Assembly (NCBI RefSeq): GCF_009805705.1
Contig: NZ_VSMB01000004.1
Span: forward strand, 124,001-188,000
DNA: 64,000 bases
Reading direction: 5' to 3'
Origin: Ruania rhizosphaerae
GTDB taxonomy: Bacteria > Actinomycetota > Actinomycetes > Actinomycetales > Beutenbergiaceae
Part shown: one piece after another, positions 26,651 through 62,100 of the stretch
Layout of the letters: every line of letters starts with the position of its first letter
Position numbering within the stretch: position 1 is the first letter of the stretch
Notes under the pieces: model-generated
What the model was told of the DNA's origin: nothing
What the model saw: only the letters and a program-made list of their open reading frames with translations
Database searches by the model: none
Position numbers and translations under genes: made by a program

Positions 26651-26683
26651 GTGATCAGGCTCGGGGGAGCGTGATCAGACCTG
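26651..26683. repeat. 33-bp block shared with 16481-16513
   Basis: Identical copy of the 3' end and immediate downstream bases of the surface glycosidase gene, here at the end of the giant LPXTG gene, 10.2 kb away in the same orientation. Direct repeats in this arrangement could recombine and delete the whole import locus between them. Confidence 0.9.
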
Positions 26684-29600
26684 TCGCCGGCGCACCCCCA
26701 GCAGGATCCCTCCGGCCAGCATCAGCAGCGCCGCCCCGGCAATCCACCACACCGGTTCGGTGCCCGTGCCCGGCAGGTCGCCGTCGCCTGCGCCCGGCTC
26801 CGGGTCGAAGACGTTGGTCACCGTGACCGTGGTACCAGCGTCGGCGAGCGTGGTCAGCTCAGCCGAGTCGCCCTCGGTGGTGACCTCCTCACCCGCAGCG
26901 CTCACGGCGATCGTGGTCGCGTCCGCACCACCGGTCTCGGACTCGTTCACCACGCAATCAGCACCGATCGGCAGATCCTCGTAGGTGACCGTCAGGTCAT
27001 CCGGGGCCTGCAGTTCACGCACCGCACCGCCGGGGATCTCGACCTCGCGCTCCTCACCGTCCGCCGTCCAGGTGCAGACCAGGGTGACGGCGAAGCTCGC
27101 CTCACCGGCAGGCTCGCCCTCGATCTGCTTGGTCACCGTCAGCGACGTCACGTCGAAAGTGTTGGTCAACGTGACCACAGCCGGCTCTTCTCCCACGGTC
27201 ACCACCCCATCGGCCGGGAGGATCTGCGTTGCGGTAGCTCCGCCGTCGGCAACCTCGGTGACCACGCAGTCCGTGCCCACCAGCAGGTCACCGATGGTGG
27301 CGGCGTAACCGTTCGCAGCGTTGAGCTGAATGTGCCCATCGTTCGGCAGCTCAACGCTCACCTGCTCGCCGTCACGGTCCCAGGCGCAGACCGCCTGCGC
27401 GGTGAACGGCCCGGCACCATAGAGCTCAGCGCCCGGCCCGTCGACCAGCTTCTCGATCGCGACCTCGCCGAGGACGAACGTGTTCGTGGCGGTCACGCCC
27501 ACCATGCCCACGTTCTCCTCATCAGTTTCCGGGCCCACGATGGTGACCGCGCCGTCGGCGGGTTCGAGCGCCGTGGCGTTCGCTCCCCCGGTGGCCGTTT
27601 CGGTCACGGCACACTCGGTGCCGGCCGGGTAGGTGCCGAACGAGCGCTCTGCGCCGGCAGCGAGCTCGAAGGACTCCTCGAGTAGGGTCTGGCCGTCGTA
27701 GGTGCAGACGGCTTCAAAGCCGAACGGTCCGGCGCCGTAGAGATCGGCTCCGTCACCCTCGGCGACCTTGGCCACCGACAGCACGCCGGCATCGTAGCCG
27801 TTGGTCACCTCGACCTCGGCACCGGTGACGTCGACGCCGATCGTGGCCGATCCGTCGCCGTTGTCGGTGACGTTGGTGCCCACGATTACCACCTCGTCCT
27901 GAGCGGCGTCGGCCTCGGTGAGCACGCACTCGGCGCCGACGGGGATAGTCCCGGCCGGGGCGTCGAAGGTCTCGCCGTCGGCCAGGGTGAACGCGAGCTC
28001 CGTCGCGCCGTCACCGAAGTCGACCGGAGCACCCAGTGCCGTGGTGCACGTCAGGGTGAAGTCGAACGGTCCGAGCTCACCGGAGGTGGCCTGGGTGTCG
28101 ACATTCTTGGTGACGCTGAGGTCGGCGTACTGGAAGTCATTGCCGAGCTGGCCCACATGAGCAGCAGGAACCTCGTCCTCAGTACCGGTCATCTCGGTGA
28201 TGTCGAGGGTGACCGAACCCGGCTCGCGGCTGGTCTCTCCGAACTCGCCGACCTCACCCTGCTCGGTGACGACGCACTCGGACCCGAGCGGGATACCGTC
28301 CACCCGCACCGACTCGCCGTCGGTGAGGGTCAGCGTGGCGTACTCGCCCATGTCGAGCGGTGCGCCTTCGACGGTGCAGACCAGGTCGGCCAGGAACTCC
28401 TGTGCGGCATAACCAGCGGCGGGGCCTGTGACGTCCTTGACCACCTCGAGCGACCCCGTACGCAGGTGCACGCCCACGGGGGACGGTGCGAGCCTCTCGT
28501 AGCGGTCCTCGCCCGCCACCTGGTACTTCACACCGAACTGGTTCCACGCATACGTGTCGGTCACCGGCACTTCCACCGGGGCACCGCTCGGATCGACGTC
28601 AGTGGCCGGGACGTTCTCGCTGGAGTAGGTCACGTCCACGCCCTGCCCGGGCACGAGAGCACCGTCGGCCGTGGCGCTGAAGTCGAGCCAGATCCGCAGG
28701 CCGGACACCTGCGAAAGGTCGGTGCCGTCGGTCAGTTCGGTCCACTCCTCACCGCTGGCGGTGCACGGCTCGGCCGTGGTGACCTCCGACCAGGTGCCGA
28801 CGCAGACATCGTCGCTGGTGGTCACCTCGATGACCGTCTCGGTCCCCTCGGGGGCGGTCACCAGCAGGTTGTCCAGTAGTTGCGGCCGGTACACCGAGCC
28901 GCGGTCGCTCCCCGCCACCAGGGAGAGGTCCCCGGCAACTGGCAACTGGTCAAAGACCACCATCTCGGTGATATCGGTGGTGCCGGCGTTGACGGTCTGC
29001 AGCACCCAGTCGTCGGTTCCGCCGATCACGCTGTTGGCGGCGCAGGGTGCGCGGTAGTAGTCGCCGCCGGTGGCCGTGAGCGTCGGCTCACACAGCCGGT
29101 CCACCGAGGAGCTGTGGTGCGCTCCCTCCAGCTCCCCGCGGACACCCTTGAGGGTGTAGAGGTTGGTGCCCTGGGCGGGCTGGACGTAGTCGGTGGCGCC
29201 ACAGGTCGTGGCATCAGACGCCCAGTCGTCGGTGGTCGATCCACCGGAGACGACGTTCTCGCACCGCTCCAGCGTCTGAACAGTGGAGGCGACCATCGTG
29301 TTCGTGGTGCGCTCTCCAGAGCTCAGGCCCGGCTGCAGCTCCAGCAGCACGCGGATGGTGAACGTCTCCCCCGGCAGCATCCGGTTCCCGCCCTCGGGCC
29401 AGGTGAAGACGAGCTCCTCGCCCTCCTGGGTCAGCGTGACGTCCTCGCTGAGCGCGCCCTCGTCGTCGGCGGTGTAGGTGGGCTCGTCCCCGAGGTAGGC
29501 GAGGTGCTCCGGGAGCGCGTCCCGCACCTCGGTGAGGTCCAGGTATCCGGTTCCGGAGTTGTGCACGGTCAGGTCCCACGGCACCAGGTCGCCCACGGTC

Positions 29601-32600
29601 GCCGTGCGGTTGCCGTCGTTGGCGAGCTTGTTCACCTCGAGCTCGGCGGTGCCTTCGCTCAGGCCCACGACGGCGGCCGCCGCCTTGGCCTCGGAGCTTT
29701 CGCCGTTCAACCGGTCACTGATGACGGTGACGGTGTTGGTCACCTCTCCCTCGAGCTGCACGGCCTCGCCGGAGTCACGGTAGTCCTCGCGCAGCTGCAC
29801 GGTGAACGCGGCGTTGGCCGACCAGCCCGGCGCCGGCACATCGTCGGAGAAGAACTCGCCGTCGGCGCGGGAGAACGCGAACCGGACACCCTGCACCTCG
29901 GTGAGGTCCACATCCGGCAGTGCGGCGGTGTCGAATCCGGTGGGAGCGTCGCTGGTCCACTCCAGCTCGCCGTCGGTACCGAACGGTCCGTACACGTCGA
30001 TCGCGACCTGGTCTGCGCCGTCGGGAGCGGTGATCTCCCCGAGACCGGTGAGGTCGAAGGTGTTCCAGAAGTCCGGTGACGTCGTGACGTCATCGGTGAG
30101 GCGCACCTCCGCCGGTGCCAGCGTGCTCACCGGGTCGTTGCCCTGGTCCGCACCCAGGGTGACGGTGACCGGCTCGTCCCGGGTGGGCTCGGTGAGTGCA
30201 TCGGGGGAGACGGACTTGGAGGGGGCCACGTTGATGTCCCCGCCGGTGAGCCCGACGGCGGCGCTAGCGTTGGCACCAGTGAGTGCACCGTCATTGAGCA
30301 GCGGATCGTAGGACTGGGCGAACACCCGGTTCGGGATCTGCAGGTGGTCGTTCGCCGAGAGCAGCTGCTGCTCGCCGGTAGACCGCAGGGTGGTGCGCAG
30401 CTGGGTCTCGAGCACCACGGAGAGCGTGTTGTCGGAGGTGATCGTCGCCAGATCTGCGCCGGCGTAGGTCACGCTCAGGCCGATCACATCGGCGAGGTCG
30501 GGCGCAGTGAGATCGTTGGCGTCCTCGGCCACGACCTGGCTGGTGGTGCCATCCTCGTGCAGCAGCCACACAACGCTCTCGGCGAGATCCACCTGATCGG
30601 CGATCCCGGCGGAGATGTCGAGACCGGTCAGGGTGAACCGGTCGAACGGGCTCCCCTCCCGCAGCCAGTCGATGTCGGCGGTGAACGGGTCGGCGAGGGC
30701 TCCGGCCTCACTCGCCTCGCTCTGGCAGACGGAGATGTTCTCGGCATCGGTGCATGCCGGCGGGTCCATCAGGCGCACGTAGGAGGCGGGAGTCACCGAG
30801 TCGTTGCGCGCGGTGAGGGTGAACGTCGCCGTCGGGTAATCACCGGGCTCGGTGGTGCCTTCCATCGGCACGTACAACTCGCTGGTGGGGTCCACACTCT
30901 TGCCGACCTGCACCCCCGGCGGCGTGGTGGTGATGGTGATCACCGCGTTGTCGCTGTCCGTGACGGGGTCATCGCCGCCGATCGGCGTGCCGGTGACGCT
31001 GGTGGTGTTGTCCACCACGCCGGGCTCGCCGGCGTTGTAGACGGCCTCGTCGGTGATCCAGGATCCGTCGGAGCGCAACTGGTCGCGCAGGCGCCAGGTC
31101 TGGTCGAAGGTGCGGTCGACGCTGCTGGTCGCCACACCGGTGCCGGGGGTCGGCGCGTACGGGTCGTAGGCGTCACCGGCAGTGGCCGCTGCCTCACGGG
31201 CAGCGGTGTTTTCCTCGAGGACGACCCGCATCGCCACCGTGGAGACCTGCTCGTCCGTGGTGAGGGTGTAGCCGACGAAGGCGCCGTTCGACTGCCAGCC
31301 GTCGGCCGGCTCGGCCACGGTCTGCCAGCTGGTGCCGTCGTAGAGCTCGACGGCGGTGATCGTGTCGTACTTCAGAAACCAGCCGTTGCTGTACGGCTCG
31401 TCACTGCCGGCGATCGGGTCAAGCTGGACCAGGTCGAAGGCGTCGTACACGGTGTCGGACACATCACCGGGCACTGGCGCGGCGGGGTCACTGACGACCA
31501 CCTGCTCGAATCCCGGCGAGACACGCCAGGAGAGGGTGGTGCCCGCCTGCTGGTCGGTCTGAGCCGGAATGGTGGCCCGGTCCCAGGACTTGTCGATGCC
31601 CACTCCCGGTCCGGGTCCGCCCGGTTGGGGCGCGACGCCGGCGGAGTCGACGTCCTCATCCGTATCGGTGAGCGGGGTACCCGCCTCGGTCTCACCCGTA
31701 CCGGTGGTGGTGGCGAGGTTCTCCACGTCCACGCCGTCCTCGGTGATCTCACCGCCCGAGCGAAGCTCGTCGCGCGCGGTGGAGACCACGTAGGGGGTCA
31801 CCGTGGTGTCGGCGGCGAACCCGTCAGTGTTGTCGAAGATGAACCGGATTCCGGTGAGGTCCTCGGTCGTCACGCCGCCCGGGAGTGCGGCAGCGATCTC
31901 GGCCTGGCTGAGCGAGGCGAGGAAGGGACTGGCCTGAGCGTCGAAGACGGCCACGGACGTCCAGCTGCCGTCGGGCAGCTGCACCTCGACGGTCAGGTCG
32001 GTGTTGCTCGGCACCTGGGTGGGTGCCACGGAGTCGACGTTGAAGGCGTCCCAGAAGCCGCCGTCACCGGTGGAGGAATCCTCGACCACGATCTGAGTGG
32101 CCGTGACGTAGTCCGAGGTGGTGGTCAGATTCGAGCGCAGCTCGGTGACCACATCCTCACCAGGGCGCACGGTGGCGCCCGGGCGAATCGTCTTGGTGAG
32201 CTCGACGTCGACGGCCGGGGCCACGAGTGTGAGGTTCGCGTCGTCGCTCGCCTCTTCGCCGCGGTCGTTGAACGTGGTGATGCTGGCGTCGACGGTGTTC
32301 GTGGTGGGGAGCGTCTCGCCGGTGCTGACGGCAGCCTCGGTCGAGCCGATCATGAAGTCGGCACTCGTGCTCGCGGCGGGCTCGATCCCGGGTGCGTCGG
32401 CTGTGAAGACCAGCTCGAAGCCGGAGATCGCCTCGGCCGGCGCAGCAGGTGTCTCGCCGTCTGCGAACGGGACGCTGACCGGGTCGGAACCATCCAGCGG
32501 GTGGTAGATCACCTCGGCACCGGTGGCGCCCGCCGGCCAGCTGGGGGCCGCCGTGAAACCGTCGAAGGTGAGGTCGGCGGTGAAGTAGTCGAGGTCGGCC

Positions 32601-33883
32601 AGACGCAGTTCGGCCACCGGGATGTCGGATGCGTTCGTCCCGGTGAGGGTGGCTTCGGCGCTGTCACCGGCGGCGATCCGGCTCGGGCTGATGTTCTTGC
32701 TGGTCTCCACACCAAGGGCCGGCGGGGTCACCGTGTAGCTGGCGTCGGCGGTGGCAGTGGCCGGGTCGCGATCGGCGACGGCGGCGCTTCCGACGGTGGT
32801 GTTGTCGACCGTGTGCGTGTCGACGGAAAGGTCCTCGCCGGTGTCGCGGTGCGTCTCGCGCAGGGCTAGATCCAGCTCGACGGCGGAACTCGCCTGCCGT
32901 TCGATCGCCGCACCGGTGTAGGTGATCCGGATGCCGGCGACATCGCCGGGGTCGACACCGACCGGCAGCGCGGGGGTGGCATCGGGTGTGCCGGTCTCCC
33001 AGCCGTAGCTGCCGTCGGACTGCAGCACGTACACGTCCACCTGCGCCTGCTCGGCACCGGGGGGCATGGACGCGGAGAAGCCGTCAGGTCCGGCGAGGTC
33101 GGTGAGGGTGAACGGATTGCTGGGGTCGAGGGAGGTGGCGCCGTCGGGAGCGTTCTGCGGCTCCTGGAGGGTGAGGGTCTCGACCGGGCCGTTGGAGGTG
33201 TTCGTCACGCCGAGGCTGATGGTGGACTCGGCACCGGGAGTGAAGGTTTCCTCGGCAGGATCCCAGTCCTTGGTGACGTCGACGTCGAGCACGGACGGGA
33301 CCACGAGTGTGGTGGTGGCGTCGGAGGAATCTGGGTTGGAGTTGGACGCCTCGGTGGTGGCGGTGTTGGTGAACGCGTACTCGCCCGGGGTCTTCTCCGG
33401 TGCCTGGAGGGTGATGCTGACGCTCACGCGGGTGCCGAACTCGAGTCCGGTTCCCTCGGGGTTGGTGCCCTCCTGTTGGAAATCGATGTCGAGCACCGTG
33501 TCATCGGTCAGCACGCTCGGCTGTGACGTCTCGGCGCCATCGACGGTCCACGTGACCTCGCGCGGCACGGAGGACGCCGACGGGGTGATGGTCACGTTCT
33601 GCAGTGCGTAGCCGTCCAGCTCTGCTGGGAACTGGTCCTGCAGGTGCGCGTCGAGACAGGTCGCCTCGGAACAGTTCACCTCAATCGTGTAGGTGAACGG
33701 CTCATCCACGGAGATCTCGTCCGCGCTGACGCGCTTGTCAACGGTCAGGTACTGCGGATCGCCGACGTCCGCGACGGCGGGGGTCGTTCCGGCGATCACC
33801 ACACCGCCGGTCAGTACGAGTGCAAGGGCGCTCGCGAGCACCCGTCGGATGCGTCGGTGTGGCGAGTTGGTTGCGCGCAGCAC
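26675..33883 (-). CDS. Giant LPXTG-anchored surface protein with repeated DUF11-like and DUF5979 domains
   Basis: About 2,402 residues from a GTG at 33883 with GGGGGAAGG about 9 bases upstream. Signal peptide 1-39 (RRIRRVLAS, hydrophobic core, AVA-DV). The bulk, to about residue 1,800, is a chain of beta-sandwich repeats of roughly 200 residues, each opening with a phrase like VDVTKDWDP, VETSKNISP, VELTKTIRP or VAPSKSVSP and containing a GIR(I/F) strand. This is the DUF11/conserved-repeat pattern of surface fibres. Five DUF5979 domains (about 1,815-2,360) follow, then LPGTG, a helix and RRRQV for sortase anchoring. The protein is strongly acidic and should form a long stalk. A catalytic domain is not evident. 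Adhesion or a structural role is inferred. Confidence 0.85.
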   Translation of the reverse strand: MLRATNSPHRRIRRVLASALALVLTGGVVIAGTTPAVADVGDPQYLTVDKRVSADEISVDEPFTYTIEVNCSEATCLDAHLQDQFPAELDGYALQNVTITPSASSVPREVTWTVDGAETSQPSVLTDDTVLDIDFQQEGTNPEGTGLEFGTRVSVSITLQAPEKTPGEYAFTNTATTEASNSNPDSSDATTTLVVPSVLDVDVTKDWDPAEETFTPGAESTISLGVTNTSNGPVETLTLQEPQNAPDGATSLDPSNPFTLTDLAGPDGFSASMPPGAEQAQVDVYVLQSDGSYGWETGTPDATPALPVGVDPGDVAGIRITYTGAAIERQASSAVELDLALRETHRDTGEDLSVDTHTVDNTTVGSAAVADRDPATATADASYTVTPPALGVETSKNISPSRIAAGDSAEATLTGTNASDIPVAELRLADLDYFTADLTFDGFTAAPSWPAGATGAEVIYHPLDGSDPVSVPFADGETPAAPAEAISGFELVFTADAPGIEPAASTSADFMIGSTEAAVSTGETLPTTNTVDASITTFNDRGEEASDDANLTLVAPAVDVELTKTIRPGATVRPGEDVVTELRSNLTTTSDYVTATQIVVEDSSTGDGGFWDAFNVDSVAPTQVPSNTDLTVEVQLPDGSWTSVAVFDAQASPFLASLSQAEIAAALPGGVTTEDLTGIRFIFDNTDGFAADTTVTPYVVSTARDELRSGGEITEDGVDVENLATTTGTGETEAGTPLTDTDEDVDSAGVAPQPGGPGPGVGIDKSWDRATIPAQTDQQAGTTLSWRVSPGFEQVVVSDPAAPVPGDVSDTVYDAFDLVQLDPIAGSDEPYSNGWFLKYDTITAVELYDGTSWQTVAEPADGWQSNGAFVGYTLTTDEQVSTVAMRVVLEENTAAREAAATAGDAYDPYAPTPGTGVATSSVDRTFDQTWRLRDQLRSDGSWITDEAVYNAGEPGVVDNTTSVTGTPIGGDDPVTDSDNAVITITTTPPGVQVGKSVDPTSELYVPMEGTTEPGDYPTATFTLTARNDSVTPASYVRLMDPPACTDAENISVCQSEASEAGALADPFTADIDWLREGSPFDRFTLTGLDISAGIADQVDLAESVVWLLHEDGTTSQVVAEDANDLTAPDLADVIGLSVTYAGADLATITSDNTLSVVLETQLRTTLRSTGEQQLLSANDHLQIPNRVFAQSYDPLLNDGALTGANASAAVGLTGGDINVAPSKSVSPDALTEPTRDEPVTVTLGADQGNDPVSTLAPAEVRLTDDVTTSPDFWNTFDLTGLGEITAPDGADQVAIDVYGPFGTDGELEWTSDAPTGFDTAALPDVDLTEVQGVRFAFSRADGEFFSDDVPAPGWSANAAFTVQLREDYRDSGEAVQLEGEVTNTVTVISDRLNGESSEAKAAAAVVGLSEGTAELEVNKLANDGNRTATVGDLVPWDLTVHNSGTGYLDLTEVRDALPEHLAYLGDEPTYTADDEGALSEDVTLTQEGEELVFTWPEGGNRMLPGETFTIRVLLELQPGLSSGERTTNTMVASTVQTLERCENVVSGGSTTDDWASDATTCGATDYVQPAQGTNLYTLKGVRGELEGAHHSSSVDRLCEPTLTATGGDYYRAPCAANSVIGGTDDWVLQTVNAGTTDITEMVVFDQLPVAGDLSLVAGSDRGSVYRPQLLDNLLVTAPEGTETVIEVTTSDDVCVGTWSEVTTAEPCTASGEEWTELTDGTDLSQVSGLRIWLDFSATADGALVPGQGVDVTYSSENVPATDVDPSGAPVEVPVTDTYAWNQFGVKYQVAGEDRYERLAPSPVGVHLRTGSLEVVKDVTGPAAGYAAQEFLADLVCTVEGAPLDMGEYATLTLTDGESVRVDGIPLGSECVVTEQGEVGEFGETSREPGSVTLDITEMTGTEDEVPAAHVGQLGNDFQYADLSVTKNVDTQATSGELGPFDFTLTCTTALGAPVDFGDGATELAFTLADGETFDAPAGTIPVGAECVLTEADAAQDEVVIVGTNVTDNGDGSATIGVDVTGAEVEVTNGYDAGVLSVAKVAEGDGADLYGAGPFGFEAVCTYDGQTLLEESFELAAGAERSFGTYPAGTECAVTETATGGANATALEPADGAVTIVGPETDEENVGMVGVTATNTFVLGEVAIEKLVDGPGAELYGAGPFTAQAVCAWDRDGEQVSVELPNDGHIQLNAANGYAATIGDLLVGTDCVVTEVADGGATATQILPADGVVTVGEEPAVVTLTNTFDVTSLTVTKQIEGEPAGEASFAVTLVCTWTADGEEREVEIPGGAVRELQAPDDLTVTYEDLPIGADCVVNESETGGADATTIAVSAAGEEVTTEGDSAELTTLADAGTTVTVTNVFDPEPGAGDGDLPGTGTEPVWWIAGAALLMLAGGILLGVRRRQV

Positions 33884-34028
33884 GGTGATTGACCTTCCCC
33901 CGAAGAGTATGGATTGACCTGCCCGATCGAGTACCTGGGCAGGAGCGATGACCACCATGGCACGACTTCTCGGGCGTTCAATCTCCGGGGCGGGCCGATA
34001 CCGGCCGTCCCCGAGACGGGCGCTGACC

Positions 34029-34094
34029 TGCGCAAATGCGCACAGACCCTCACCACCGATGTGAATCACATTCAATGAATTGTGACCAAATCAA
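34029..34094 (-). promoter_or_regulatory. Candidate promoter and operators of the giant surface protein gene
   Basis: This is the only AT-richer patch in the 380 bases upstream of the giant gene. On the minus strand TTGATT (34089-34094) and TGTGAT (34065-34070) stand 18 bases apart. The -10 overlaps a perfect palindrome ATGTGAATCACAT (34059-34071), and TGCGCAAATGCGCA (34029-34042) lies just downstream. The long leader (about 170 bases) contains nothing else I can name. No regulator for these sites is apparent. Confidence 0.45.
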
Positions 34095-34263
34095 CACTTC
34101 TGTGGTATCAGCACCACCCGGGACCACGCACCGAGAAACCGTCCGGCTACCTCGAGTGGCCGGCATGCCTGGAGTGCCTCGCAACCAAGCACGCACCCGC
34201 CCGATCCGCACCTATGCTGCGACGAGGACCGCGCCGTCACATGGCGGGACCCTCGCGTAGCAC

Positions 34264-34635
34264 GGCGGAGAGAGGGTGGGAGCCGTCCCTCGCTCGCGCT
34301 CGCTCCTCCTACATCTCACAAGCCAGATATGTGATGGAGCCCCGCCCGAAACACACGGGGGGGCTTCCTCACAAGGGCGGAGACGGTGGGAGCTGTCCCT
34401 CGTCGCTGACGCTCCTCAGTCCTCCCAAATCCCCCAACACACGTGTGGTGGTAGACCGACCCGCTCGCTACGCTCGGGGCCGTCCTACCACCACAGGGCG
34501 GAGACGGTGGGAGCCGTCCCTCGCTGGCGCTCGCTCCTCCCAAATCCCCCTCTGCAGCACGTGATGAAGGCGCCCCACCGCCTCGCTTCGCTCGGGGTGG
34601 GGCGCCTTCATCACAAGGGCGGAGACGGTGGGATT
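34264..34635 (-). repeat. Tandem repeats of the tRNA-Ser 3' end with hairpins (rtT-like)
   Basis: The last bases of the tRNA-Ser gene, read on the plus strand as GGCGGAGACGGTGGGA, occur at 34618 (in the gene), 34497, 34376 and, with changes, 34264, so the period is 121, 121 and 112 bases. Copies 34264, 34376 and 34497 continue with a similar GAGCCGTCCCTCGCTGGCGC-type stretch and a CCTCCCAAATCCCCC end. Each unit also carries a hairpin: 34561-34614 (19-bp perfect stem), 34444-34495 (11 bp) and 34331-34372 (imperfect). All lie downstream of the tRNA in its direction of transcription. Confidence 0.85.
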
Positions 34636-34708
34636 TGAACCCACGGAAGGGTTGCCCCTTCACATCCTTAGCAGGGATGCGCACTAGACCAGACTATGCG
34701 ACGTCTCC
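34620..34708 (-). tRNA. tRNA-Ser (anticodon GCT)
   Basis: An 89-base class II tRNA with long variable arm. Acceptor GGAGACG/CGTCTCC, anticodon stem CATCC/GGATG enclosing CTGCTAA (anticodon GCT), T arm GTGGGTTCAAATCCCAC, discriminator G, no encoded CCA. It reads AGC and AGU codons. Its 3' end is repeated in tandem downstream. Confidence 0.95.
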
Positions 34709-34779
34709 TAGGTGCCCACCAGGATAACGGGCTCACCGGCATGATGCGAACCACCCCTCCCGAGGCGCCGGGAACGCAG

Positions 34780-35172
34780 TTATGTCGCTGTCTCCAGGCG
34801 CCCCAGACGCACTCGCGCACCGGTAGCCAGACCCGCTCCACCCCCAGCGATCACCACGCACGCCATATGGGCTGACTCGAGCCATGGCACCCCGAGCAGC
34901 GAAGCGAGGAGAGCTCCCACCCCACCCAGCGCCATGCCGCGGCCGAACGCGAGATTCGCACGTTCGCGGCGCCGTTGCTGAAGCACGGTCCGTTGCCCCG
35001 CTGCGCGCTGCTCATGCACCAGCGCAAAGATCACCACAGCGACCAGGACCACGAGCGCCACCGCCATCGTCAGCGGCGTCAACCAGGAGGCCCACCACAC
35101 GATGCCGTTGGCCATCCCCGGCGCAACGACCACTCCAGCGGCGAACCGGAACCATTCCCATCCGTGCGGCAC
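34780..35172 (-). CDS. Small hypothetical membrane protein
   Basis: About 130 residues from a GTG at 35172, chosen because GGGGAGGGA lies about 8 bases upstream. Four hydrophobic segments are visible (about 8-30, 32-57, 78-97 and 102-121), with a basic cytoplasmic loop QQRRRERANLAFGRG between the second and third. I recognise no family. It lies between two tRNA-Ser genes on the same strand. Confidence 0.6.
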   Translation of the reverse strand: MPHGWEWFRFAAGVVVAPGMANGIVWWASWLTPLTMAVALVVLVAVVIFALVHEQRAAGQRTVLQQRRRERANLAFGRGMALGGVGALLASLLGVPWLESAHMACVVIAGGGAGLATGARVRLGRLETAT

Positions 35173-35212
35173 GGTGGCATCCCTCCCCTGTCTGCCACCG
35201 TACGCCGGAATC

Positions 35213-35301
35213 TGGCGGAGGGTAAGGGATTCGAACCCTTGGTGCTGTTGAGGCACAACGGTTTTCAAGACCGTCACATTCGGCCGCTCTGTCAACCCTC
35301 C
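35213..35301 (-). tRNA. tRNA-Ser (anticodon TGA), CCA encoded
   Basis: Class II cloverleaf: acceptor GGAGGGT/ACCCTCC, anticodon stem ACGGT/ACCGT enclosing CTTGAAA (anticodon TGA), long variable arm, T arm AAGGGTTCGAATCCCTT, discriminator G followed by an encoded CCA. It reads UCA and other UCN codons. Confidence 0.95.
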
Positions 35302-35419
35302 TGGTCGCCCCATTCTGTCCCACACCTGCGAGCAGTCCCAAACCGGACATCGACCCGCTCGTTCCGCGAACCTCGATCCCTGGATGAGCGGTGGCGCGTC
35401 CCGTTCATAGAGTGGGGGT

Positions 35420-59158: not shown

Positions 59159-62100
59159 TCAGCCGTGACCGGGCCGCTGGTGTCGTCTGATCATCAGCAC
59201 TGCGGCCCCGCTCACGAGCAGCCCCAGGGCAACGAGGCAGAGCAGCATCGGCACACCGACCCCGGTCTCGGAGAGCTCACCGTCCGTACCGGAGCCGTCC
59301 GTCTGCCCGCCATCTCCCGGGTCGGCGCCGCCGTGCCCATCTCCCGGGTCGGCGCCACCCTGCCCATCACCTGGGTCAGTGTCACCCTGCCCATCACCTG
59401 GGTCAGTGTCACCCTGCCCATCACCTGGGTCAGCGTCATCCTCGCCCGGGCTGCCCGGCTCGGTGGGTTCCGGATCGGGAGCCGGATCCGGCAGAGCCGC
59501 CAGCGAGAACACCGTGGTGGCGCTGCGCGACACGTTCCCCGCAGCATCTGTCACCTCGGCGAACCACGCGTGCCGGGCCTGCGGTGCCAGATCAGCGACG
59601 ATGACGTCCGCAGCATCTGTGCCGACAACCGTCTGCGCCTCACCCACTGGTGTCGGTGCGCCGACGTCCAGGCTGAGCCCGCGCGCGCCGAGGGTGCGGT
59701 GATCGCCAGCACCACCGAGGTCGAGCTCGAGGACGAAGTTCTCCGAGTCGTCACCGTGGAACCCAGGCACGTCCTCCGAGGAGATGGGGGAATGCCAGCG
59801 CCCGTCCGAGGTCCATGAGTCCAGCCACGGCGAGTACGTGTTCACGTACAGAAGACCGTTCTCCGCATCCACACTGAGGTTCTTGTAGAACTCGTGACCA
59901 CCCCACGGGCGCGTCTGGTAGTCGGTGAGCAGACCGTAGGACGTGGTGCCGTGATCGGTCTCCCGAGCAGCCACATAGCTTCCGGAGTTGTGGCCGGCAA
60001 GCACGAGCGCCACGTTCGGGTAGGGATCGACGAGTTGATCGTTGATCCGCGGGTTCGTGTACGGATCGTTCGCGTCACGGGCAAACATGTAGTCGTGCGT
60101 GGCCAGGATCACCGTGTGTTCGGGATGTGCTTCGATGACTTCCCTCGCCCACTGGATGCCCGGGTCATCGTCGGTGTTCGCCGACCAGTAGCTGAGCGCG
60201 AGGAACAGCAGCTGCGCCCCCTCCATCTCTGCCGTGTAGTAGTAGTTGTCGATGTCGTAGTGCCCACCGAAGGTGAAGGGCGTGTCCTCGACGTTGTCCT
60301 GGAAGCGGGACATCGGAAAGTACTGCTGGAGCATCAGGCGACCGTTGCGGTCCTCGGAGTAGTCGTGGTTGCCCCACGAGACCATCAGCGGGATTCCAGC
60401 CTCCTCAAGTGCACGGGCTGAAGGTTCCGCGTCGCTCCACTGGTACTCGTCCCGCAGATACTCACGGTTAACCCAGTCACCGGCATGGATCACGAGTTCG
60501 GTCTGACGTTCGTCGGCGTTGTCGACGAGGTGCTCGAACATCTCGGTCATCATCCACGGCGTGGACTCGGCGTAGAGCTGGGTGTCCGGCACATGGCTGA
60601 AGCTCCAGTCGAAGTCGGAACGGTCCGGGTACTGCTCGTGCACGCGGTCGCCGAACGGCTCAGTCACGAGACCTCGCCAGATCAGCACCTGGAGCTCAGC
60701 GTCGGGCCCGACGGCGTTCTCCGTCGCGAGGGCGGTGATGTCCAGCGAGACCTCACCTCCGGAGATGTCCGCTTCACTGTCCTTCACCAACCAGCTCCCG
60801 GCCGTGTGGTCCCACACCCAGGCGGAGATGCGACGGTCGTCGCCGGTTCCGGTCCAACTGAGGTGGAAGGTCTCTTCGGCAGCCTGCTCTGGGGTCAGCG
60901 CGATGGAGTAGATCTGGTAGGGATTCGCATCCTCGCCGACCGTCTCCGGGAGGAGATCTTGTACCGCCTCGCCGGACTCGGGTGTCAGTGACGTGGGCAC
61001 CCGGTCCTCGGTGGCACCGGTGCGCACACTCACGTTCGCCTCGGTCAGGTCGACCGCCTCGTTCATGAAGAATCGCGCCTCAACGGGCTCACGATCGTCG
61101 CTGCCCATAGTGGCGCTCAGGCGCACCTCGTCGGTGGCGGCATTGACCCGCTCGGTATCCACCTCAGGCTGTTCCGGAGCCGCCGTGTCGGTCACACTGA
61201 GGGAAACGGTGGCCCCCGCCGTATCGTCCCCGAGTGCCGCCACCAACGAGACATCCTGCTCGCCAGGCAGGTGGACCGGCACGTCGAGCATGAAGATGCC
61301 CGCCTCGACGGTCTCCTGGAAGACGATGCGATCTCCGACGGTGGCCGTGATCTCGGCTCGGTGGGAGAGCGCACCGGTGATCGGAACGAGCCCGGCCTCG
61401 ATCTCACGGTCCGGGGCGGCGCTGTCAGCGATCAGGGACAGCCCGTCCTGCGAGCGCTCGGTGCGTTCGCCGTGACGGACGGCGTCTCCGAAGTAGTTCG
61501 CATAGCGGAACCGCTCGAACTCGGGCAGAACGGGAGCACTCGCGATCTGCACCTCCTCGATGGTGCCGTGGAACGGCGCGACGAGCGAGTCGTCCTCTGC
61601 CGATAGCGCACCGATAGTGGTGAGGACGCCGAAGTCGCTTCGCGTCGGCCGACGTTCGGCCATCGTCTCGTACTGCTGCACGCCGTCGACGAACACCGCG
61701 TAGGTCATGCCGTCATAGAGCTGGGTGACCAGGTGAGGTTCGCCGTCGGCCGGAACGGTGGCCGTGAACTCCGAGGAGCCCAGGGTCGTCCGCACCGCCC
61801 CTTCTCCCCCGCTCAGCCGTTGCAGGAACGCCGACGGTGTGTCGCCTGCCGGGTCCTCCTTGGCGACGATCGTGCCGTCCTGGCCGCCCGCGAGGACATC
61901 CTCGTCGGTGAACGAGTAGATGCCGCTCACGGAGATGGTCTGATGCCCCCCTCCCACGTTGCCCGGGTACTGCAAGAGGGATCCCTCGAAGCGGCTTGCG
62001 AGCGCCCCACCCGCAGTCGCCTCTGCGCTCAGATCGGCCCCGAACAAGGTGCCGGTGTGCTGCCCGGTGGAGTCGACCCGGGTCTGGCCCGCCGTCGTGG

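Follow-up and report, generated by a model that had tools for sequence, protein, structure and literature searches.

The window, by which we mean the whole 64,000-nucleotide stretch of DNA that was analysed, carries a tRNA-Ser(GCT) gene followed on the same strand by an array of repeated units, the parts of which are as follows.

34618..34708, minus strand: tRNA-Ser(GCT), host gene of the array (ARAGORN; Rfam tRNA, 55.6 bits)
34628-34644, minus strand: T-arm of tRNA-Ser(GCT), GTGGG-TTCAAAT-CCCAC (located in the sequence)
34561..34614, minus strand: hairpin 1, terminator-like, with a 19-bp perfect stem, directly 3′ of the tRNA (inverted repeat)
34541..34548, minus strand: unit 1 antisense "guide" GGGATTTG, complementary to tRNA nt 56-63 (position and family-wide covariation)
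34514..34540, minus strand: unit 1 constant stem-loop, GGAGGAGC...GGACGG (model R1 match at 34509-34547, 56 bits)
34497..34512, minus strand: unit 1 sense copy, tRNA nt 60-73 plus CC (repeat search)
34444..34495, minus strand: hairpin 2 (inverted repeat, 84% complementary)
34376..34434, minus strand: unit 2, with a diverged stem-loop (R1, 26.1 bits)
34426-34433, minus strand: unit 2 guide, GGGATTTG
34376-34390, minus strand: unit 2 sense copy
34331..34372, minus strand: hairpin 3 (located in the sequence)
34264..34317, minus strand: unit 3, degenerate, with the intact guide absent, the stem-loop retained and the sense copy altered (R1, 30.4 bits)

Read along the minus strand, the tRNA is followed by hairpin 1, core 1 (beginning with GGGATTTGGGAGGAGC and finishing with GGACGGC), copy 1, hairpin 2, core 2, copy 2, hairpin 3, and lastly a core and a copy that are both degenerate. 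The 16-mer GGCGGAGACGGTGGGA was found exactly at 34376, 34497, and 34618 (gene included), with no other exact copy on either strand of the window. Repeat analysis recovered the three copies, the weaker copy at 34264, and the steps of 121, 121, and 112 nt described in a first-pass annotation of this DNA, together with the hairpin reported beside each unit (hairpins 1 to 3 above); the GCGAGCG-type runs mentioned there are real and represent the inner stem-loop of the conserved core. Beyond that annotation, units 1 and 2 were seen to begin with an antisense of the T-arm, and like units were found behind other tRNA genes. The array obtained the top score (283) among nine Tandem Repeats Finder rows in the window, and the RNA fold of 34240-34720 was 5.9 s.d. 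more stable than that of 100 shuffled sequences. A search of 33900-35400 against Rfam 15 gave two tRNAs as the only matches over the gathering score and no family for the array. Elsewhere in the window, a 2466-aa repeat-rich surface-type ORF with an LPGTG-like sorting signal at its end (by eye) occupies 26675-34075 on the minus strand, and a 27-bp tandem repeat of 5.1 copies with 90% matches lies at 59310-59447.

Four parts make up each unit of the family. It opens with a terminator-like hairpin and an 8-nt stretch antisense to nt 56-63 of its own tRNA (T-loop plus T-stem); these are followed by a constant stem-loop (GGAGGA-hairpin-GACGG), after which the tRNA sequence from nt 60 to nt 73/74 is repeated in sense orientation. 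The core reads antisense [N]GG-ATTNG, GG-AGGAG, a variable inner stem-loop, GACGG, one to two variable bases, and the sense copy from T60. The base preceding T60 was C in 59, T in 53, G in 11, and A in three cases when nt 59 was A, with a further 20 two-base inserts, and A in six and C in three cases when nt 59 was T; the assumption that it is the complement of nt 59 was dropped because of this mixed base composition. Identity of the sense copy to the tRNA was 98-100% at nt 60-63, on which the anchor was chosen (class-search set), 97-98% at 64-68, 85-93% at 69-72, 82-84% at 73-74, and 52-57% at 75-78; the drop past nt 73-74 places the unit boundary close to that of the tRNA. A full antisense of the acceptor strand (at least 7/8) was present in 8/146 units versus 0.7% in the control, and is in view of these few units taken as a hint only. 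At tRNA-Ser(CGA) of genome G006, a hairpin sharing the outer stem of hairpin 1 is present without a unit (L027). Since the hairpin adjoins the tRNA in the absence of a unit in several relatives, it looks like the terminator of the tRNA, with the units positioned beyond it.

The inner stem varies in sequence and length with its pairing retained. From 120 unique inner hairpins 101 were classed, yielding 37 triloops (GNA in 29), 26 tetraloops, six loops of 5-8 nt, and 32 longer ones. Among the tetraloops, 15 were GNNA, composed of 10 GNYA and five GNRA, so that GNYA was no rarer than GNRA. The sequence GCGNAGC forms an extraordinarily stable DNA hairpin that is much weaker as RNA. Judged by their sequences, the inner loops look DNA-like. 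A 2-bp "extraordinarily stable" DNA hairpin is tabulated with a Tm of 76.5 °C (PMC10527192).

The antisense changes with the T-loop of the tRNA next to it: the T-loops TTCAAAT, TTCGAAT, TTCGATT, TTCAAGT, TTCGATC, and TTCGAGT are accompanied by ATTTG, ATTCG, AATCG, ACTTG, GATCG, and ACTCG, respectively. The collected set comprised 158 unique units for which a T-arm was recognised and the copy matched in at least 8/12 nt. The exact 5-mer complement of the unit's own nt 56-60 was present in 146 of them; with shuffled T-loops the mean was 84.4 and the highest count 102. After collapsing to 138 distinct units, 127 were exact (shuffled mean 71.6, maximum 88); in these counts shared descent was handled through removal of identical units only. 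Shuffling within the six isoacceptors with more than one T-loop sequence gave a mean of 42.5 compared with 58/65 observed, a value reached in none of 10,000 shuffles. Five of the 12 misses had been anchored by the script on the wrong AGGA and contain the right 5-mer by eye (L177, L192, L211, L092, L094), L072 is probably not a unit, and the others are decayed or differing (window unit 3, L205, L210, L213, and L081 twice). In the class-search set, which was not selected for the copy, 59/61 units were exact, including 30/30 with a T-loop other than TTCAAAT; two of originally 63 units had been dropped, L215 because the tRNA 345 nt upstream was not its match and L254 because GACGG was absent by eye. 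Complementarity reaches nt 63, at 76% compared with 50% when other tRNAs serve as controls, and then declines. A wobble T opposite G57 was observed in none of the 40 units with G57. The Ser(CGA) and Pro(TGG) units of genome G000 have the spacer TATCTGGCYTG in common and differ in the T-stem complement (TGGG versus CAGG), each fitting its tRNA. Exceptions are ATTCG opposite the T-loop TTCAAAT at tRNA-Ser(GCT) of G124, and ATTTT at L210.

These units are a family of non-coding, tRNA-anchored hairpin elements that is essentially confined to Actinomycetota. With the locus as query against 59 genomes, units were also detected behind tRNA-Ser(CGA) and tRNA-Pro(TGG) of the window's own genome, each with the 3′ end of that tRNA. 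Relatives also have the repeat, a check that the first-pass annotation had suggested. In the window's genome, the covariance model R2 identified nine units, three at Ser(GCT), two at Pro(TGG), and one each at Ser(CGA), Ser(GGA), Pro(CGG), and Arg(CCG). Within the order, 8/198 genomes had a match to the fixed pattern GGATTTGGGAGGAGC-gap-GACGG; reversing the pattern as a control gave no match in those listed genomes. On GTDB contigs the pattern yielded 87 stretches, 64 of which had a same-strand tRNA ending 0-200 nt upstream (background 1.3%); by record title, one of the 64 is from Acidobacteria (L140), two are from an "uncultured bacterium" (L089, L137), and the rest are actinobacterial. The remaining 23 comprise 12 that lack a tRNA 3′-end copy by eye and appear chance-like, 11 of them in other phyla (L062, L069, L090, L096, L098, L100, L101, L117, L120, L121, L133) and one in Amycolatopsis (L111), and 11 that have the copy by eye with no matching tRNA called within 200 nt (L066, L080, L083, L084, L093, L104, L107, L114, L123, L124, L134).

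Model R2 found 97 places in 35/296 genomes of the class, representing 22/106 genera. Among the 77 places read, 63 had a same-strand tRNA within 900 nt upstream; the other 14 include partial tRNA 3′ halves upstream at L236 (twice), L250, and L260, and three chance-like matches (L258, L259, L265). The fixed pattern required GGATTTG, and ATTTG is present in 37/46 R2 training rows; matches at other T-loops run counter to this ascertainment bias. The host tRNAs across the collected units are specific for Ser, Pro, Leu, Met, Arg, Ala, Gly, and Thr. In Phycicoccus (the genus of G039), 6/11 genomes contained model matches. Several units are carried by genomes of 1.4-1.7 Mb, which speaks for a use, since selfish DNA should be purged there.

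Rarobacter faecitabidus, a single named genome, has units behind Ser and Pro tRNAs (L142, L143, L076, L084); the T-loop of its Ser(GCT) is TTCGAAT with a matching ATTCG antisense, and it is a possible test organism. A compact version with a period of approximately 60 nt occurs at L089, L105, L110, and L116, in which the tRNA 3′ end and the following bases can form a short hairpin (e.g. CGCCGC-GAA-GCGGCG) that replaces the separate terminator.

Arrays vary in number and type of units, and decay. In a comparison of the close relatives G000 and G004, the sequence upstream of tRNA-Ser(CGA) was 97% identical (580/600), and the units there differ in type (81/93 identical, with 6 gaps). The Ser(CGA) unit of G000 instead agreed at 95/97 positions with the unit that G004 has behind tRNA-Ser(GCT), each ending in the local tRNA 3′ end. 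At Ser(GCT), 566/598 positions of the flank and 84/91 positions of the first units (with 23 gaps) were identical, and at Pro(TGG) the arrays differ. Second units were more diverged than first ones, with means of 0.96 (n = 26) and 0.47 (n = 159) differences per 12 nt, respectively. Decayed units were seen by eye at tRNA-Ser(CGA) of G481, a genome without a model match, and of G124, which has matches elsewhere only. Inheritance of the units looks partly vertical, with loss. In G477 a near-identical variant core is found at two tRNAs. The unit that G000 and G004 have at different tRNA genes could reflect gene conversion rather than transposition. At L075 (1541-2243), two identical units at a distance of approximately 650 bp enclose a small VOC/glyoxalase-like ORF (by eye), as if a gene had been trapped in the array; this is possibly an assembly effect.

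Searches for four enzyme families gave no partner of the units. Like REPs and REPINs mobilised with RAYT, they are short intergenic hairpins with a G-rich foot and are probably non-autonomous; in contrast to these, they are tied to tRNA genes and follow the host tRNA in sequence, and a Y1 transposase (Y1_Tnp, RAYT) was found in 0/8 genomes of the carrier genus. It was present in 4/59 relatives, all without an R1 match, and this reading was rejected because the enzyme is absent from carriers. With bridge RNAs and intron guides (IS110, group I/II introns) the units share a guide complementary across an insertion point, but neither an IS110 transposase nor a reverse transcriptase tracks them. The IS110 DEDD transposase was not found in the carriers G001, G002, and G039, and one is present in G000, so a bridge-RNA guide was discarded for want of association with the units. 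A reverse transcriptase was detected in G001, G004, and G005 and not in the carriers G000, G002, G003, G006, G007, and G039; as several carriers lack it, retro-copying or derivation from a group II intron was rejected.

Integron attC sites and cassette arrays resemble the units in their tandem arrangement, variable inner hairpin, imperfect outer stem, single conserved junction, and more diverged second units, but the outer stem of the units is the tRNA T-stem and there is almost no cargo. An integron integrase over the cut-off was found in none of 29 genomes; the matches below the cut-off in 29/29 were other tyrosine recombinases, which, being present in all, cannot discriminate carriers. The integron integrase was dismissed as a partner, as it is not associated with the units. 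In a search for autonomous versions, in which two copies would flank a gene, the loci looked at contained IS-like remnants or ordinary genes (L142, L118); the search also returned islands with tRNA 3′ halves (L124, L236, L250, L260, by eye) and, at L075, the VOC-like ORF flanked by identical units. As a separate observation, an IS-like element beginning with TGTGATGTC or a close variant, which we take to be IS481-like, lies a few nucleotides from a tRNA 3′ end or from the sense copy of a unit at 12 loci (L003, L004, L006, L013, L016, L017, L029, L033, L034, L048, L049, L173); it also occurs in G008, G014, and G015, genomes without a unit match, and is perhaps an IS targeting tRNA 3′ ends.

We tentatively favour, with a confidence somewhat short of even, a folded-hairpin DNA element that has the T-loop as its target. 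One strand of the unit would fold into a hairpin with GGGATTNG on its 5′ side, a sequence identical to the bottom strand where the tRNA T-loop passes nt 59|60. At this position the hairpin would be joined by an activity of the host, either strand exchange or copying. The antisense would span the 59|60 junction exactly, so that the exchanged strand would pair perfectly only with a matching target T-loop; a homology test of the exchanged strand is known for tyrosine recombinases. Insertion would duplicate the tRNA 3′ end (nt 60-73) and leave the tRNA intact. Suitable candidates for this activity would be a tyrosine integrase, an enzyme of the Xer type, or template switching during replication at the hairpin of the T-arm. 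Exact identity without wobble, the DNA-like loops, the position beyond the terminator-like hairpin, the arrays, and their turnover argue for DNA; the lack of an enzyme partner in these searches, the partly vertical inheritance, possible gene conversion, the occurrence in small genomes, the mismatch in G124, and the guide-less unit 3 of the window argue against it. Also considered was a cassette with a tRNA 3′ half of its own that had gone in at nt 59|60; it fits poorly, since the same unit stands at Ser(CGA) and Ser(GCT), each time with the local 3′ end.

The hairpin element might go further and retarget itself: a mini-element of approximately 100 nt would move among tRNA genes via T-loop pairing across the insertion point, each insertion copying a new T-loop antisense and a new 3′-end sense copy into the element with host enzymes only. 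We consider this extension of the DNA reading unlikely.

A cis-acting RNA switch is a possible but somewhat unlikely alternative. In a read-through transcript the antisense would pair with the T-arm and the sense copy would take over the pairing with the 5′ half. The resulting tRNA-like RNA would have a three-way junction in its T-loop, and the unit would tune tRNA output or make a long tRNA-like isoform. The antisense is indeed complementary to tRNA nt 56-59, which are missing from the unit's own sense copy, and the sense copy is retained through the acceptor strand. In 147 tRNA-unit sequences the two folds were near-equal (median 1.8 kcal/mol against the alternative, which was lower in 47), and the unconstrained minimum contained an antisense helix of at least 6 bp in 72 and the normal T-stem in 53. 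On the other side, only 24/102 sense-copy differences keep the pairing with the tRNA 5′ strand, and C>T changes per C (0.014) are rarer than G>A changes per G (0.029), which may only reflect dying units. Wobble is missing at position 57, the units lie beyond a terminator-like hairpin, and the inner tetraloops are not mainly GNRA.

It is quite improbable that the units are a mutational by-product with neither a function nor a dedicated element, in which template switching between T-arm and unit, together with gene conversion, keeps old duplicates matched to the tRNA. Quasi-palindrome correction is a template switching process of replication, and exact identity without wobble, the near-identical cores at two tRNAs of G477, and imperfect palindromes adjoining each other are in line with the by-product reading, but this leaves unexplained why the GGAGGA...GACGG core is constant across many genera and why the inner stems change yet still pair.

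An rtT-like small RNA or a decoy for tRNA processing, as proposed by the first-pass annotation, is very improbable. The comparison with rtT at E. coli tyrT holds at the level of anatomy: in both cases a tRNA gene is followed by tandem repeats that include part of its 3′ end, each with a hairpin. It fails in that the units are not peculiar to tRNA-Ser or tyrT, being spread over host tRNAs for eight amino acids and many genera, in that the antisense T-loop part would have no role in such a transcript, and in the absence of RNA-family matches other than tRNAs over the gathering score; moreover, the units are shorter with a variable period (about 60-130 bp) and possess a constant stem-loop. As to the other readings named there, simple decoys for tRNA 3′-processing do not account for the antisense T-loop part, plain neutral tandem duplication does not account for the T-loop covariation, and remnants of att sites, which at tyrosine-integrase T-loop attachment sites likewise involve a duplicated tRNA 3′ end and an intact tRNA, would contain the T-loop as a direct copy, whereas the units carry it as the inverted complement, with the direct copy beginning at nt 60.

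tRNA genes are common docking sites for integrating DNA in bacteria. We know of no named repeat, att site, or guide RNA with arms that follow the host tRNA, and no description of such a tRNA-anchored element was found in the literature searched, from which subscription journals were mostly out of reach; the element family is therefore regarded as new within the limits of this literature and of our knowledge. An element that tracks the T-loop of its host tRNA suggests a process guided by nucleic acid that has so far gone undescribed, be it a mechanism of DNA insertion or a switch in tRNA folding, and such a process becomes testable in ordinary soil actinobacteria.
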